From positions 248,001 to 312,000 of the forward strand of contig WHVD01000026.1 in NCBI GenBank assembly GCA_015178975.1: DNA of 64,000 nt, written 5' to 3'. Every line of letters starts with the position of its first letter. Within the stretch, counting starts at the first letter, position 1. Position numbers and translations under genes: made by a program. The DNA is from Hysterangium stoloniferum. Its lineage: Eukaryota; Basidiomycota; Agaricomycetes; Hysterangiales; Hysterangiaceae. The notes below the pieces were generated by a model that was not told the origin of the DNA, made no database searches, and saw only the letters and a program-made list of their open reading frames with translations. Shown here piece by piece: positions 7,479 to 61,858 of this stretch.

Positions 7479-7918
7479 CCAGTGGTCTGAATTTCCTTCC
7501 ATGATTATCCATTTCCAACCCAGATGTCTTGGTGGAAAACCAGATGCCATGACTTGATAATGGGACATCTATCCTACAGAGGGGGAAAGTAACTATGCTC
7601 TTGTTAATCCCCATAATATGAAACTGGTTTTTACAACACAGCAACTTTCCACATCTATCTAAGCGACTTCTCTCTACCATCCAATTATGTGTAGCATTAT
7701 GATTATGGACATTGAGCAATTATGTACATCAAGATATCCTTTCCACACTTACTTCTGACCTGGCTCTCAAGTCACACCTAGAAGTTCCCGAAGATCCCAA
7801 TCAACCCCAGTGGTCCCAAGACTCTCAAGGTTTCATCCATCTCGATGGATATATCTACATTCCAGATTCCAACAACCTCCAACTCTGTGTACTTCAGTAC
7901 AAATATGATCATCCAATC
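7479..7918 (+). pseudogene. Element A RNase H end and integrase N-terminus
   Basis: Resumes the pol frame after the 5761-7474 insertion. A conserved linker (DI-QDILSTLTSDLALK, about 7712-7780) precedes the integrase N-terminal zinc-binding region, which is cut at 7918 by the TRIM. It continues at 8330-8433 (HHCC region) and 9803-10098 (first catalytic Asp, in MDFIEQLP). Confidence 0.8.
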
Positions 7919-8046
7919 TGTTAGTTTGAGTAATGCTAGCAGTGCTTCCCAGGGTCAGGTGGTGTAATGGTTAACACCCCTGCTATATATGCAGAAGCCC
8001 TGGGTTCAATCCCCAGTCTGGCCATTCATTATCTACACTTTTAACA
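7919..8046 (+). repeat. TRIM 5' LTR (128 bp)
   Basis: Identical to the 3' LTR. It contains a complete tRNA-like cloverleaf (7953-8024) and a T4 run (8039-8042), a minimal pol III terminator, just inside its end. Confidence 0.9.
7953..8024 (+). tRNA. tRNA-like sequence, anticodon position UAU, within TRIM 5' LTR
   Basis: The 72 nt fold into a cloverleaf: 7-bp acceptor stem GGTCAGG/TCTGGCC with two G-T pairs, D stem GTGT/ACAC, anticodon stem of four pairs plus a C-A mismatch, 4-nt variable region, T stem CTGGG/CCCAG with loop TTCAATC, then A as discriminator. TGGTGTAATGG fits the A-box consensus; GGTTCAATCCC fits the B box. The anticodon loop is TATATAT, so position 33 is A rather than the near-universal U, which argues against a working decoding tRNA and for a promoter role or a tRNA-derived relic. 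Confidence 0.75.
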
Positions 8047-8060
8047 GGTTATGGGCCCCG
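8047..8060 (+). promoter_or_regulatory. Primer-binding site complementary to initiator tRNA-Met anticodon arm
   Basis: GGTTATGGGCCCCG lies directly after the 5' LTR. Its complement contains GGGCCCATAACC, the anticodon stem-loop of eukaryotic initiator tRNA-Met. Drosophila copia and yeast Ty5 are known to prime from this internal region with a cleaved half-tRNA. Confidence 0.75.
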
Positions 8061-8201
8061 CTGTGTGCTATAGGGCATGGTTCCTGTGTGTAGAGTGAAC
8101 AGCTATATTTGTGTGTGGTATAGTGGACAAGTCTGGACAAAAGAGCCAGAGAGGACCTATATCTGCTTATAGTATAGTTGAGTGCTAGCATTAAGGGAGT
8201 G

Positions 8202-8329
8202 TGTTAGTTTGAGTAATGCTAGCAGTGCTTCCCAGGGTCAGGTGGTGTAATGGTTAACACCCCTGCTATATATGCAGAAGCCCTGGGTTCAATCCCCAGT
8301 CTGGCCATTCATTATCTACACTTTTAACA
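8202..8329 (+). repeat. TRIM 3' LTR (128 bp)
   Basis: Same 128 bases as the 5' LTR with no difference found by eye, implying recent insertion. Confidence 0.9.
8236..8307 (+). tRNA. tRNA-like sequence within TRIM 3' LTR
   Basis: Exact repeat of 7953-8024, with the same A box, B box and A33 anomaly. A T4 run follows at 8322-8325. Confidence 0.75.
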
Positions 8330-8433
8330 CAATCTCCAGACACTATGGCATTAACAATACTCTTGGATTAATCTGAAGAGAATATACTTGGCCCAACCTC
8401 TGAGATTTCATAACCCAGTTCTGTAAGTCATGC

Positions 8434-33756: not shown

Positions 33757-34260
33757 AATACCACTCTCCACCACCAGTTCTATGCTGGTCTGCCATCCCA
33801 CCTCAAGAATGAAGTCTCAAAAGGAGAAAATGACAAGCCAAAAACACTGTCCGGTATGTGCCTCAAGGCTCAAAATGCGGATGCACACTATTGGGAATGT
33901 TGCATGGAAGTTGCCCATGAGACCTCCATGGACAAGGTGAACAAGTCTACGGCCAACAAGCCCAACAACAATACCCTATCTACTGGCAACCAAAACTCCA
34001 TGCACTCTGATCAGAAGAATGACAAGAAGCCAACAACAACAAAGGTCAGCAGACTGGCAAGCAAACCAGAAAGCCTGACCTTACAGGCAAGTTTGGACCC
34101 GATGGCAAACTTACCCCACAAGAATGACAACATCATATGGACAATAACCTTTGTCTCTTGTGCAGAAAACCTGGTCATCGAGTTCTGGAATGTCCATTGG
34201 CAAAAGCAAACTCTGTGAAAGGTGGTGTAGCTAAGACTCCCTCCATGGAAACCCTGTTGA

Positions 34261-35443
34261 TGTTACGACCAGACAATCCCTCCGGACTCTGGGCACTAAC
34301 CTGTACACCATCACGCCCTACACACACCATCACGCCCTACACACACTATCACGCCCTACACACACCATCACGCCCTACACACACCATCACGCCCTACACA
34401 CACCATCACGCCCTACACACACCATCACGCCCTACACACACCATCACGCCCTACACACACCATCACGCCCTACACACACCATCACGCCCTACACACACCA
34501 TCACGCCCTACACACACCATCACGCCCTACACACACCATCACGCCCTACACACACCATCACGCCCTACACACACCATCACGCCCTACACACACCATCACG
34601 CCCTACACACACCATCACGCCCTACACACACCATCACGCCCTACACACACCTACACACACCATCACGCCCTACACACACCATCACGCCCTACACACACCA
34701 AATGTCTGTTTATAGCATTTCCCGCCCGGACTCCATTACATCAAGACTTGTTATGTTCGACCTCATTACAACACATATCAGTCACTGGACTTCCCCCGGA
34801 CTCCGTCTCTGTCTATGTCTGTCTTCGTCCCACGCATCAGTCACTGGACCCCACTTAGAATCCCATCACCACTCTAATCGAGCCCCGTTCCCATTTTAGT
34901 CAAATGACCTGTCACGATTTAGGACTCCGCTCCCACTCCATTTCCCGTTATGGGTTATGCTTTGTCACGATTCAGACTCCGCTCCGTTCCGTCCCATTCC
35001 TAACACCAAACTTGGTGTTTACTATTCCCGTTTTATGTTTTGTTAGTTTTGTTTCGCCATTACTGGATTTAATATGTTATTCACTCCATGGTCTATATAA
35101 ACTGGCAGATGTTGTACATACAATCCAGTCAGAAGATTAGCTTATATTCCCCCCAGTAATCTAATCCATTTTCCGCTCTAAACCCTTGCTTGATTCACAT
35201 CGCTCTCACTAGTCGGAGCCCACGGGCTCCGGTGCATCTATCTCTCTCACCAACCTCGACTCACGACTCATGACCCATGACCTACGACCCACGACCCCTG
35301 CCTGGACTCCCCGGGATTCCCATCCGCCTGTCTGAAATTGGACAACACGATCTAGCGAGGGTGCAGCCTATAAGCTGAAGCCAAGTCCTACCGGATATCC
35401 CGTGGGTTTCTCCAGAGACCCGCCCTGTGTGTGTATCCTAACA
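34261..35443 (+). mobile_element. Solo LTR (C/G family) expanded by a minisatellite
   Basis: Starts TGTTACGACCAG, ends ATCCTAACA; GTTGA on both sides (34256-34260 and 35444-35448). The length is 1183 bp instead of about 815 because of the tandem array at 34304-34700. Confidence 0.88.
34304..34700. repeat. 19-bp minisatellite, about 20 copies
   Basis: Near-perfect tandem copies of caccatcacgccctacaca, with one short interruption near 34650. It lies where other LTRs of the family have a single gtacgcccccacacgctac-like stretch. Open frames with His/Thr/Pro repeats across it are not genes. Confidence 0.95.
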
Positions 35444-48849: not shown

Positions 48850-49155
48850 CGTCATTATCTCAAAGGTTCCGCAACTCCCGTTGATGTTGTTACCGATCAC
48901 AAAAATCTCAAATATTTTTCTACCACTAAACTTTTAACCCGCTGGTCCAAATTCCTTTCCACTTTCAACATGATTATCCATTTCCGACCTGGACGTCTTG
49001 GTGGAAAACCAGATGCCGTGACTTGACGATGGGACATCTATCCTAAAGAGGGGGAAAGTAACTATGCCGTTGTTAATCTGCATAACTTGAAACTGGTTTT
49101 TACAACGCAACAACTTTCCACATCTATTTGAGCAACTTCCCTCTACTATCCAATT

Positions 49156-50660
49156 ATGTGTAGCATTATGATTATGGACATTGAACAATTACATCAAGAT
49201 ATCCTTTCCACACTCTCTTCCGATCTGGCTCTCAAGCCACACCTAGAAGTTCCCAATAATCCCGACCAACCCCGATGGTCACAAGACTCTCAAGGTTTTA
49301 TCTGTCTCGATGGATGTATCTACATTCCAGATTCCGACAATCTCCGACTCCGTGTACTTCAGTACAAACACGATCATCCAATCTCCAGACATTACGGCAT
49401 TAACAATACTCTTGGTTTAATCCATAGAGAATATACTTGGCCCAACCTCCAAGATTTCGTAACCCAGTTCTGTAAGTCCTGCACCACCTGCTTACGCTCC
49501 AAGACCCAGAAGCATAAGCCGTATGGCCTTCTCAAGCAACTCCCGATACTGGAAAAGCCCTGGAATTCAATCTCCATGGATTTTATCGAGCAACTCCCAA
49601 CGTCTGAAGGCTTTACATCCATTTTAGTTGTTGTGGATCAATTCTCAAAACAAGGCATTTTCATACCCACTCATGATACTATCACGTCCTTACAATTAGC
49701 GGAACTTTTCATTATTCACATATTTTCCAAACACGGAGTCTTATCTCACATAACTTCCAATCGAGGCTCCAAGTTTGTCTCCCATTTCTTCCAGGCCCTT
49801 GGAAAAGCCCTCAACATGAAACTACACTTCACCTCGGGATATCACCCAGAAGGTGATGGACAAACGGAACGTGTTAATCAAACATTGGAACAATATCTCT
49901 GCATCTATTGCAATTACCAACAGGACAATTGGAAATCCCTTCTTCCGATCACGGAATTTGCCTACAATAACTCTCCAAATGCAACTACCGGCCTCTCTCC
50001 TTTTTTTGCCAACAAAGGCTATAATCCAAATCTCACAGTACATTCCGAACGAGATTTGGCTTCTGTTCGTGCTCAAGAATTTATTACTGGCCTCGACGAA
50101 TTACATCAAGAACTTCGGAAAGCTATTTCTTCCGCACAGGAATATTATCAATGTTCCACAGACAAAAACAGGATCCCACCTTCTAATTTTAAAATTGGTG
50201 ATCAGGTTTTTGTAAAAGCTCAATTCTTCCATACTACCCGACCATCTAAAAAACTCACTGAGAAATTCTTAGGCCCTTTCAAAATTATAGCACAAGCTGG
50301 TTCACTCTCATGGACTCTCCAACTTCCCAATAGTATGTGAGCAGTCCACCCCGTTTTCCACATTTCCATGTTAGAACCCTGTGTTCCTAACAAAATCCCG
50401 GAACATATTCAACCTCCGACCCCTCCGGTCATCATTGACAGAGAACCCGAATTTGAAGTTTCCAAAATTTTGGATTCTAAAATCGACAATCGCCAACATA
50501 CTTGTAAATTGCTCTATTTAGTCAAATGGACAGGTTATGAAGGTACCAACTAGGAAACTTCATGGATATTGGCCACAGAACTTGGACACGCTATGGAAAT
50601 TGTCACTGACTTCCAGACTGCTTATCTGAATAAACCCGGACCTTTATCATCACTTTAACC
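49156..50660 (+). pseudogene. Element E integrase and chromodomain
   Basis: Open from the linker MDIEQLHQDILS through the zinc region (KSCTTCLRSKTQ), [16 protein letters not shown] (second catalytic Asp reads Asn) and PEGDGQTERVNQ to a TGA at 50338 (CGA expected). It continues with VFHISMLEPC and the chromodomain (50450-50580), which has a TAG at 50551. Confidence 0.88.
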
Positions 50661-57998: not shown

Positions 57999-60900
57999 TT
58001 ATAAGAGACGCTGTTCTTCGTAATACTCTCTCACTTGGAACAACAAATCCATCTCCCTCTCCTTCCACCTCCTCTGCACCTCCGCCTTCACCTTCCCCCG
58101 GGCCTCATGGTTAACTTGCTTCGTAGTAACACAAAATGCTCCAGAGATAGGCCGATGATCAGACACGTCTGCCTCATACCGCTTGTAATGCAGACTGCGC
58201 ACTCGCCCTGGCTCACGGCATCGCCACAGTATTCGATCACACCACGCCGGCGCACGCCTTTTCTCCGAGGAGTCGTAAGTGTCAGAGCGGCGATCGTATT
58301 TGTATGTAGGGGCAAATGTAATCGGAGCTTCTGTAAAAGAACGAAGCCGGAAGCCAGGGTTGTTCTTTGCCTGTTTACGAAGCTGATCGTGTTTCAGCAG
58401 ATATTCGAGATCATTGTTTTCCACTGCGGGGATGATTGCGTCGCGCCGTAGATCGATGCGGTAGTTCAGATCTCCATTAAGCTGGAAAGTGTGAGTGTGA
58501 GTTTGAAAATTCAGAACCCCAAAAGCATCGGGGGTGGACATACGAAGCAGATCTCGTGATCCAAGATCATGGAGCCGTCTCCCCCTCCAGCATAAGGCAA
58601 TGCGTCAATAATCTCAGACCTCGGGAATGCCGCCCCTTCCTCCAATATCGCTGCTATATCTCGATTCCTCGCCCGGGTATGTGACTGTCCAGCAGCAAGA
58701 TGGCAATTGATAAAACATAGTGAAGAGTCGTCAACTACGAATCGCGCCACGATCGCGCCCTATAAATACCACATCAACGACAGAACTGTTGGAGCATTTT
58801 ACCAGGCACGAACCTTATTACCATACCGCCCTCCCATTCCCCTCTTGACAAGTTTCATATGCGAATCCCGCAGAAGTGCTTTCTGTTTCTGCCTTACAAA
58901 AATGCAAGAGAAAAGGCCGACGAGGTTGTCGGTGTGCGCAACGACGTACGGGTCGTCAATGGGCATTGCAAGACGCACGGCATGCACTAGTGCATCATGC
59001 CACATCCTGTATGATCGCGATACCTTGTCCGATATAGATCCATCTGCCTTCTTTTGGGCTCCAAGGAGGACAGTTTCTGAAAACGCCAAACAATCAACAA
59101 ATTTGATCGTTTCCATGATTCTCGCCTCCCATCACTTACTTGCTGCCAAACTGCGATTCTCCAGATCGATCAGTTCTTGGAAGCCAAAAGAAATGATATC
59201 GGGTCTGTCTACGCTTCTTAACACTTGCTCCAAGAAGGTAATATTGTCTGGGTTAGATCCGCCAGAGGTGAGCACGTCCGGCTTTTGGGCATCAGTGTTC
59301 CATGAACAGATGAGCACATTGAGTGGGCGGAAAGTGCTGAATTCGGCTTCATGCGATTGGAGCTCAGACTCTGGGTGAAGGAGTTAATAAACACTGTGAC
59401 AAAGCGTCAAGATGGCATTACCAATCCACTCAGCGCTAAGGAACCCGTCCCAGAATCTAAGCACTTCGTCACGACCGACGCTCACAACATGTAGACTTTG
59501 AGACTATCCGCGGTTTGTTATCTGGCGTGGTCATAACACAGAACAGCCACAACTCACCTTCGCAATGCTAAACGGATCCAGCGTAATCCGCGAAACAGGC
59601 AACTCTTCATGCGCCCTCCATGCATTCGTCATACGCCACCCTTCGCTCCTCTCATCACCAGAATCGACGCTATACGCTGTAATCACACCGCTTCTCGATC
59701 CAGTCCACAACTTATCCAGCACACCCTCCAACGCCAACACATCTGAATTCGAAATCTTAACAATCCCAACGTAAACGGGTACAGCTTTTCCGGAGTCGAA
59801 AGTATCCGTGCCCTCTGTCCAAACCGAGACGAAACCACCTTCATGTCCGAGATAGACGCGGTCGGGGTGCGAAGGTAGCACAGCACCGCTTGTCACTGCC
59901 CCTAAGGACTCCGATGGCGTAAGTATCTTCGAGCTGCAATTCGCTGCGAGAATATCATAGACACGTATAAGCGGCCCCTTTGCCGTGACACTAGCGCTGC
60001 TAGAGGATGCGCTGCCACTGCCACTGCCTCCCGACATCCAAAGCACACCTCCGAAGATCCGCACGAAGCCCTGCTTCTCAGATGTCCTTGCCACGCGCGG
60101 TTGTTGAGCACCTGCCGGACCCAAGTCCTCGTAATCCCGCCAGACCAGCATTTTTCCGCTCTCGTCTAAAGTAAGCATCGTACGGCCTTGGCGCATGATA
60201 CGCGTGATGGTATGGCTGTGAGGAAGTGGCCGGAAGCGGCGTACGACGTGATCCACGACGTCGAATTCGAACAGATGACCCTCTTTGGTTCCACACCAAA
60301 GAATACGCGCTTCTTGATCTCTATCGCCGGCTCTAAACTCCATCGCAGTCACCCGAGCTTCCTTCTTGAATTCGATACCCACATCCCTGAGATCAACTGT
60401 ACTGACCCCACTCAAAACACCGCGCGTCATATCGTAGACTTTCAAATCATGTCCTGTAGTAACAATAGCTCTTGCACCGCCTACAATAACGACACTTCCG
60501 GGAGGAACGGGAACTCCACTGCGGAATGCTGATATAGTAGCCAACGGAGGTCGACGTGAACAATGGGTGGCATCGGGAAGCTCCTGGCGAGAGGAGGTTG
60601 CAGGTTCTTCCTCTTCGTCAGACGAGGAGGAAGAGGATCGGCGGCGGGGAGCAACAGGAACTTTGTCGCGGGGTCCCACTGTACGCGTAGGAGGCGGAGG
60701 GATCGAATTGAACGTGCGTGTAGCAGAGGGGTCTGTGCGTGATGGGGGCGGGGGAATGTCATAAATACGCGCAGGAGGTGTCGCATCATGCGTACGCGTC
60801 GGTTTTGTAGCAATTGGTATGGCAGGCGGTGTGTGCATATGTGTTGTTGGATCAAATGAACGACGCGGCAATGGAGGGGGCTCGTCTAATTCATGACTCT

Positions 60901-61858
60901 CAACCCGACGTTGAGGTAATGACGGAGGCAGTGGAGGTATACGTCGATGAGCCACAACAGGAGGGGTTATGCCACGCTCACTCCCACTCCCACTTTCGCT
61001 CGAACTTCGATATAGGTCAGATTGACGTAATTCTCCAGTGTTTCTCGAAGGAAGCGGAGGAGGAATTCTGACGTCATCGTTTGCGGGCGAAGCACCAAGA
61101 GCTCTGGGGCCTGGACTGAATGTTATCGATGATGTTTCATTTTTGAAGCTATTCAAAATAGGGAGAGATGCACGTGGGCCCTTAATGGGAGATCGGCTGC
61201 CTGGACGAGCTGGAAGAGCCGGAGGGGATATAACGGTGGAAATGGACCTTAGAGGAGCTTCAGCTTTGGTAGATGGATAACCACTTCCTAGAAATGCAGT
61301 GTTTTCTCTAGCATGACAAGTATCAAAAAATGTATATTTAGAGAATGTGTAAAATCGTATCACGTACTTGAACTTCGACCTAAGGGATACTACCCCTCCA
61401 GGGGATCCATCGTCTACCTGCGAATCTGGCTGGAGAATTGGTTGCTTAGATGGAGGTGGCGGTGGTGGCGGTCTGCGTGACAATTTTGTCTTGAGGTGTT
61501 CTGCTTGATCAGGATTCGGACTCGCATTCTGGCGGGGAGGCTGCGGAGACGGTGTACGCTTCCCTCTTAGTGGGGGCGGGGTCGCTGATTTGATTTCTCC
61601 ATGGTCTTTCAAATCCGGAGAAGATGTTGATGACTTTAGTATTGGGCCATTTGGCATATCCGATGGACAAGAGAAGACTCGTTTAGGGTCCAGAAGGTCT
61701 TGAGTCTCCTGCTTCAAGTCGACATTAGAACGTTGTCTGGTAGGTCTCCTTGGAACATTGATGGGAAGTGTCGAGGACGATGCTGAAGACGATGTTGCCA
61801 TTTGCTCGAACTTGGAGCGCAATGAGCTCACTGGAGGCGGCGGGGATGTCGAGCTCAT
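57999..61858 (-). CDS. Inositol-polyphosphate 5-phosphatase with N-terminal beta-propeller
   Basis: Hydrolyses the 5-phosphate of inositol lipids or inositol polyphosphates. Seven exons; six GT-AG introns at 61308-61367, 59504-59557, 59371-59421, 59077-59139, 58760-58813 and 58482-58543. The first 400 residues are Pro/Ser-rich and probably disordered, with PxxP runs. A WD40-like propeller follows, ending V-G-R-D-E-V-L-R-F-W-D. The catalytic domain has ICSWNTDAQKP, FGFQELIDL, GGRYGNKGAI across intron 5, FINCHLAAG, LNGDLNYR, APAWCDRILW and SDHRPISG, i.e. all signature motifs of the family. The propeller-phosphatase order resembles plant WD40-type 5-phosphatases. CpG and codon use look like a normal host gene. 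Confidence 0.9.

Follow-up and report, generated by a model that had tools for sequence, protein, structure and literature searches.

The window analysed here, a 64,000-nucleotide stretch of the Hysterangium stoloniferum genome, contains at 7919–8329 a 411-bp element with a tRNA-like sequence inside each of two identical LTRs, which raises the question of what such an element is, how it is transcribed and which other elements enable it to move. A sequence-only reading had taken it for a TRIM retroelement built around a pol III unit, and for a novelty among fungi. We conclude, with a probability of roughly 0.85, that it is a non-autonomous TRIM of the Helenus type, its LTR amounting to hardly more than a captured tRNA-like unit, and that it would be transcribed by pol III, packaged by a Copia element and primed by a half of tRNA-iMet. 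All relatives compared below come from this one genome, searched as 111 Mb in 554 contigs. The layout of the element is as follows.

7914–7918, plus strand: left copy of the TSD CAATC, with the same letters as 8330–8334
7919–8046, plus strand: 5' LTR (TGTTA...TAACA), 128 bp, 100% identical to 8202–8329
8047–8201, plus strand: internal domain, 155 bp, the stretch between the LTRs
8047–8061, plus strand: primer-binding site GGTTATGGGCCCCGC, complement of the anticodon-arm half of tRNA-iMet, from the match to iMet genes
8193–8199, plus strand: short polypurine tract (PPT) AAGGGAG adjoining the 3' LTR, its role assigned by position alone
8202–8329, plus strand: 3' LTR, 128 bp, 100% identical to 7919–8046
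8330–8334, plus strand: right copy of the TSD CAATC

A 128-bp LTR, a 155-bp internal domain and a second 128-bp LTR thus make up the 411 bp, whose longest stop-free stretch is 56 codons, so that coding sequence is absent. With its paired LTRs, primer-binding site, PPT (by position), length below 1000 bp and lack of coding capacity, the element has the TRIM layout. The sequence-only reading was right about the LTRs, which are identical over all 128 bp and have TG...CA ends, and about the CAATC duplication; the purine tract that it described does precede the 3' LTR, but is short and is followed by TG before the LTR starts.

The same reading had reported an empty site within the window, and this is also found. 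The 5' flank (7500–7919) aligns to 48969–49384 at 88% and the 3' flank (8330–8433) to 49379–49482 at 90%, the two alignments overlapping on the empty-site copy by the TSD plus one base.

48969–49482, plus strand: related retroelement copy with the empty site, 88% and 90% identical to the flanks, with a single CAATC at 49379–49383 and an integrase ORF

Because that ORF (49156–50340) codes for the retroelement integrase domains H2C2, rve and Tf2-1-like SH3, we read the sequence that received the 411-bp element as the remnant of a Gypsy-like retroelement, the Gypsy label being our reading of those domains. Elsewhere in the window, the closest match of a protein encoded at 59531–61858 is from Sphaerobolus stellatus (52% identity over 55% of the query), which makes the host probably an Agaricomycete close to that fungus, on the word of one gene and not of a phylogeny. 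An ORF at 34137–34715 encodes a long HTITPYTH(H)HALHTPSRPT-type repeat, arising from a tandem DNA repeat.

Relatives of the element, which we call family 1, are numerous. The 411-bp query has at least 45 matches in the genome, 43 of them covering the whole query at 98% or more; both figures are lower bounds from the best 40 of 503 candidates, and some matches overlap in tandem arrays. A 26-mer from the tRNA-like unit has 384 matches at three or fewer mismatches (both LTRs of a copy being counted), and its reversed control has none. The 30 loci read from the 411-bp search represent 28 insertions, two pairs of loci being halves of tandem arrays, and an exact 5-bp TSD flanks 26 of the 28: 23 single copies and, judged by their outer flanks, three tandem arrays (L001/L002, GATTC; L018/L015, TCGTG; L024, CTATC). 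The exceptions are L011 (TTATT/TATTA) and L022, an array incomplete on its 5' side. Neighbouring LTRs in these 30 loci differ at 0–2 of 128 sites. Solo LTRs account for 16 of 30 loci drawn from the 26-mer search, in which perfect matches were listed first, and 15 of the 16 have an exact TSD, L087 being the only one without. Two loci are irregular: the solo LTR of L079 lacks its first 12 bp and still has a 5-bp TSD, and the L022 array, flanked by AAGAAT at either end, starts within the internal domain.

These counts answer a doubt that the sequence-only reading had raised against itself, namely that other copies might be missing or might lack LTR pairs and TSDs. By the features of its sequence, the element is a real, recently active miniature LTR retrotransposon; the zero divergence of its LTRs dates the insertion in the window, not the origin of the element type. 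That the structure is a tRNA-derived SINE, or an ordinary tRNA gene with a chance duplication around it, would explain why the unit scores as a tRNA (46.8 bits), but is scarcely credible in view of the TG...CA ends and of the paired LTRs, TSDs, solo LTRs and primer-binding sites that recur in dozens of copies, and we reject it.

Elements of this type have been described before. Kojima (2024; PMC10886601) gives the name Helenus (TRIMp3) to TRIMs with tRNA-like LTRs that are common in rust fungi, with 113 families in Pucciniales, and that also occur in a few Agaricomycetes (Agaricus, Coprinopsis and Amylostereum). This rules out an element type undescribed in fungi and overturns the claim that no fungal case was on record; the 'parallel and apparently recent invention' proposed with it falls as well, since Helenus was already described and LTR identity dates the insertion only. 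According to that paper, Helenus elements have a tRNA-like sequence in short LTRs, a 5-bp TSD, a length below 1 kb, no coding sequence, a PPT and solo LTRs, all of which the window element shares. The anticodon-half iMet primer site of family 1 is the dominant type in fungal Helenus, for which a Copia helper was inferred, and tandem arrays, reported there for a zebrafish family, occur in family 1 too. Having an LTR-borne tRNA-like sequence, the TRIM layout, a 5-bp TSD and an anticodon-arm half-tRNA primer site, the window element is a further Helenus family, placed there by the features that the paper describes. Its Agaricomycete host is absent from the hosts named in the text of PMC10886601, the one paper in which a literature search of limited coverage found the name Helenus. 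The plant TRIM Cassandra (Kalendar 2020; PMC7215508) is like family 1 in having a pol III gene unit in the LTR, the TRIM layout and tandem arrays that share LTRs, and differs in its plant host and in carrying 5S rRNA rather than tRNA; a 5S-based Cassandra is ruled out for the window element, in whose LTR Rfam gives a tRNA and no 5S rRNA.

How the element is transcribed depends on the tRNA-like unit, whose parts are the following.

7953–8024, plus strand: tRNA-like unit of the 5' LTR, a cloverleaf with anticodon-like TAT and A33 (ARAGORN; Rfam RF00005, 46.8 bits)
7960–7971, plus strand: A-box-like stretch TGGTGTAATGGT, from its place in the tRNA model
8003–8014, plus strand: B-box-like stretch GGTTCAATCCCC, from its place in the tRNA model
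8039–8042, plus strand: T4 run, a possible weak pol III terminator, from the sequence
8236–8307, plus strand: tRNA-like unit of the 3' LTR (ARAGORN; Rfam)

TGGTGTAATGGT and GGTTCAATCCCC resemble the consensus of the A and B boxes. ARAGORN and Rfam both recover the 72-nt cloverleaf that had been proposed for each LTR, as a tRNA-Ile(TAT) with an E-value of 7.4e-7. Its anticodon loop is not canonical, since A33 replaces U33, and there is a C27–A43 mismatch. The best predicted fold of the LTR RNA is not the cloverleaf (−35.5 vs −32.3 kcal/mol), and the 72-nt unit folded alone is predicted to form one. A33, together with the fact that the cloverleaf is not the predicted best fold of the LTR RNA, makes a role of the unit in decoding unlikely, and here the sequence-only reading, which argued from A33, was right. 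No parent tRNA was identified among the best 63 of 5384 candidates in an RF00005 search. Elsewhere in the genome, at L092, L093, L094 and C112:0.91–1.22 Mb, lie many tRNA genes of about 94–97 nt in repeats of about 420 bp, which ARAGORN calls suppressor TTA and which are presumably intron-containing tRNA-Lys-CUU; some of those in C112 stand at mirror-image positions, suggesting a large inverted duplication.

By analogy with Helenus and Cassandra, pol III transcription of the element is likely; for Helenus itself, promoter function was left unproven by Kojima (PMC10886601). The competing explanation, in which the LTR drives pol II transcription of the TRIM and carries the tRNA-like unit as a passenger that goes back to an inserted SINE or tRNA, draws on the terminator and on sequence variation. 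The T4 run stands directly before the last four LTR bases, where the sequence-only reading had placed it, and the LTR end containing it, TTTTAACA, is kept in 72 of 75 LTR copies. Such a run is short, fungi usually needing T runs longer than T4 for pol III termination, and at the same time the first T4 run is expected to end part of the transcripts inside the 5' LTR, a point against the pol III model. Depletion of internal T4 runs is not significant as a pol III sign, zero being expected by chance (P(0) = 0.74). As for constraint on the unit, TGGTGTAATGGT is invariant in the 75 copies, some of which were found by a pattern holding TGGTGTAATGGT itself, and GGTTCAATCCCC has six variant cells in 12 sites × 75 copies. 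A first estimate across the 75 made the tRNA part seem less variable, but was biased by copies L061–L090, which were found by the 26-mer inside that part. The tRNA half outside the search pattern has 38 events against 23 outside the unit (p = 0.014), an excess that comes from one 24-site deletion; its lower substitution rate (14/3426 vs 23/3975, leaving out shared variants at LTR positions 7, 27 and 113) is not significant (p = 0.33). These young copies thus give the passenger explanation some room, since no significant constraint is seen. Against it stand the mere 34 bp of LTR upstream of the unit, the recurrence of the same design in Helenus and Cassandra, and a second TRIM family (below) which, like family 1, keeps an ARAGORN-detectable unit near the LTR end. 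On balance we regard transcription by pol II as improbable.

Under the Helenus-type reading that we prefer, pol III would start in the 5' LTR, a short way ahead of the tRNA-like unit, occasionally read through the T4 run there and stop at that of the 3' LTR, so that most of the LTR would be R region. A Copia element would package the RNA, which would be primed by the anticodon half of tRNA-iMet, reverse-transcribed and integrated with a 5-bp TSD.

The primer site itself is well defined. The 15 nt that follow the 5' LTR, GGTTATGGGCCCCGC, have an exact complement inside three iMet genes of this genome, a comparison that bears out the initiator-Met half-tRNA site of the sequence-only reading. A 16-mer joining the LTR end to the primer site, AACAGGTTATGGGCCC, occurs 631 times, and its reversed control not at all. 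Among the first 30 of these 631 loci, five belong to family 1 and three (L056, L057, L060) to a second family with tRNA-like LTRs, while 22 have other upstream sequences, with a second LTR copy within reach in five of the 22. In the 30 loci sampled, the internal domain of family 1 shows no likeness to other elements beyond the primer site. L033, L046, L048, L049 and L058 are small LTR elements with an LTR spacing of 713–1323 bp and the primer site of family 1; no tRNA-like unit was found in the pieces of them that were scanned. A Copia gag is encoded by L032, a relative of three of the five, and frames similar to it occur in L048 and L058.

For fungal Helenus, the available text of PMC10886601 points to helpers through TSD length, a single internal match and the similarity of primer sites, and the autonomous partners of Cassandra are called unknown by Kalendar (2020; PMC7215508). 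Here, candidate helpers are indicated by physical hybrids. The second TRIM family, present at L060 as a tandem array, consists of LTRs of 251 bp (LTR2) and an internal domain of 66 bp (INT2); every LTR2 holds a tRNA-like unit of 75 nt that differs from the one in family 1 and, as there, sits close to the end of the LTR. At C2 (L056, L091, L057) it is joined to a coding element, Copia-C, in the order LTR2, primer site, Copia pol, LTRC, primer site, INT2, LTR2, where LTRC, Copia-C's own LTR, is one in which no tRNA-like unit was found. The Copia-C frames are open in all three pieces read and contain beta-barrel, gag_pre-integrs, rve, SH3-like and RVT_2 domains, and integrase and reverse transcriptase are thus encoded; TTTTT stands on both sides, and the outer LTR2 copies are 99.2% identical.

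C2 has counterparts. Copia-C has at least 40 matches listed, from 73 candidates, and upstream of 20 copies other than C2 stands LTRC in 17 and LTR2 in three. Genome-wide there are six LTR2-to-Copia junctions (C2, C14, C35 twice, C256, C259) and 10 LTRC-to-INT2 junctions, which are not all independent, three sharing one variant letter. Together they mark 13 places, of which C2, C35:1081k and C259 hold one of each kind; the junction patterns were built on the primer site only, and breakpoints elsewhere would escape them. Hybrid loci with Copia-C are L056, L091 and L057 (C2), L098 (C35), L105 (C256), L109 (C259) and L115–L124. At C543:267085–281830, Copia-C 5' internal stretches occur at three places with a constant spacing of 5414 bp, which suggests a tandem array of the coding element.

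Family 1 takes part in similar joins, with other partners. A search for the LTR1 end joined to the primer site, in which one base further on had to differ from that of family 1, found three places. C135 reads GCCAT, LTR_D, primer site, INT1, LTR1 (98.4%), primer site, D start ... D end, LTR_D, GCCAT; its two LTR_D copies differ at 4 of 120 sites, and the D start reads like a Copia gag, D's relative L032 matching PF14223 (E 2e-27). At C24, one strand has LTR_E running into INT1 and the opposite strand has LTR1 (90%) running into element E, and at C141 LTR1 leads into E, which is the element of L040/L044 and in which no gag or pol was identified. The two joins at C24 (L125, C24:162900–163650), LTR_E-PBS-INT1 and LTR1-PBS-E, stand head-to-head and meet near their U3 ends, and look like the products of a reciprocal exchange. 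No LTR1–Copia-C junction was found: all 35 matches to one pattern carry Copia-C's own LTR end, and a second pattern had none. Helper candidates are therefore to be looked for among all elements of this genome that share this primer site, since it is there that several of them have traded LTRs with the TRIMs.

What kind of event made the hybrids can be judged from their ends. Nine were read at both ends, namely eight of the 13 second-family places and C135 (C24 and C141 in part); for those other than C2, order, strand and span rest on match positions, the middles not having been fully read. Matching 5-bp TSDs flank five of the nine: C2 (TTTTT), C35:906k (AGAGA), C59 (TTTAT), C259 (ATCAC) and C135 (GCCAT). 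The first three are of low complexity, AGAGA lying in a GA-rich flank, and the last two of ordinary complexity; a random pair of 5-mers from the window matches with a frequency of 0.0013. C35:906k (LTR2-Copia-LTRC) and C59 (LTRC-INT2-LTR2, with the last LTR2 letters altered) have different LTRs at their two ends, and C259 has the order LTRC-INT2-LTR2-Copia-LTRC.

During LTR retrotransposition, it is the PBS of the plus-strand strong-stop DNA (U3-R-U5-PBS) that anneals to the minus strand. Were one particle to hold two RNAs with a common primer site, the wrong LTR could be transferred at this step, which would give the form LTR_A-PBS-int_B-LTR_B; C35:906k and C59 show this form in two reciprocal directions, and longer arrays would result from additional joining of this type. 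We suggest that co-packaging followed by strand transfer at the primer site is the best explanation of the hybrids, the sharing of particles and integrase between TRIM and Copia being read from integrated DNA. Alternatively, the hybrids may have formed after integration, when one copy recombined with another or cDNA with a copy already in place, or may be assembly errors, and would then have no bearing on co-packaging. The four hybrids without a matching TSD (C14, C256, C35:1081k, C514) fit this explanation, as do the low-complexity TSDs of three others and the unread middles of most hybrids; the arrays at C2, C259 and C135, with the same outer LTR on both sides, could be cDNA recombined into a resident copy. 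Evidence against it comes from C35:906k and C59, where different end LTRs are nevertheless flanked by a matching TSD, from the TSDs of C259 and C135, and from junctions at the shared primer site, where plus-strand transfer takes place, in searches that covered that site alone. We hold recombination or misassembly to be unlikely, if still a serious competitor of co-packaging, recombination above all where a hybrid ends in the same LTR on both sides.

Complexes of a related kind are known from Triticeae (Sabot and Schulman 2007; PMC1950507), in which two elements share an inner LTR and have similar outer LTRs and flanking 5-bp TSDs, as in the hybrids here; flanking TSDs with similar outer LTRs were taken there as a sign of template switching, and the complexes as evidence that two RNAs are packaged. 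As that paper describes them, they involve Angela-, Squiq- and Opie-type elements, whereas one partner here is a TRIM with tRNA-like LTRs; further differences are that the primer site is where the breakpoints were found and that some hybrids end in two different LTRs. A literature search of limited coverage found no paper reporting that Copia and tRNA-LTR TRIMs exchange LTRs, and as fossil evidence for TRIM helpers the hybrids may be new. A broader proposal is that the TRIMs belong, with the Copia-type elements whose LTRs are ordinary, to a single exchange community, in which RNAs would be co-packaged and whole LTRs swapped at the iMet-half site, so that coding Copia elements would gain a tRNA-type promoter and TRIMs would gain other LTRs; C2 would then be a coding retrotransposon between pol III-type LTRs, an arrangement that Kojima argued to be unlikely (PMC10886601). 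We put this forward tentatively, with more doubt than confidence.

One further feature of family 1 surrounds its PPT/U3 junction.

8183–8193, plus strand: left arm of an 11-bp inverted repeat around the PPT/U3 junction, pairing with 8214–8224
8214–8224, plus strand: right arm of the PPT/U3 inverted repeat, pairing with 8183–8193

The repeat is perfect over 11 bp and flanks both the PPT and the start of the LTR (p = 0.002 when compared with other positions of the window; fold z −1.75). Family 2 and Copia-C have the same arrangement in other sequences (9 bp, p = 0.047, and 9 bp, p = 0.048), all three repeats having been noticed by eye before testing. At further loci the p-values are 0.32 (L033), 0.020 (L046), 0.29 (L048), 0.04 (L049) and 0.155 (L058), of which L048, L049 and L058 are related elements, and at 17 LTR/PBS junctions an inverted repeat reaches p < 0.05 at two (L046, 0 of 600; L044, 0.035). 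The available part of PMC10886601 contains no mention that we found of such a repeat in Helenus. A PPT/U3 inverted repeat shared across element families is a lead, not a result.

The window element thus extends the range of Helenus to another Agaricomycete, and family 1, being young and of high copy number, is suited to tests. Hybrids flanked by TSDs and with different end LTRs look like integrated products of mixed reverse transcription, and as such they name candidate helpers and make the co-packaging of pol III-type TRIMs directly testable.
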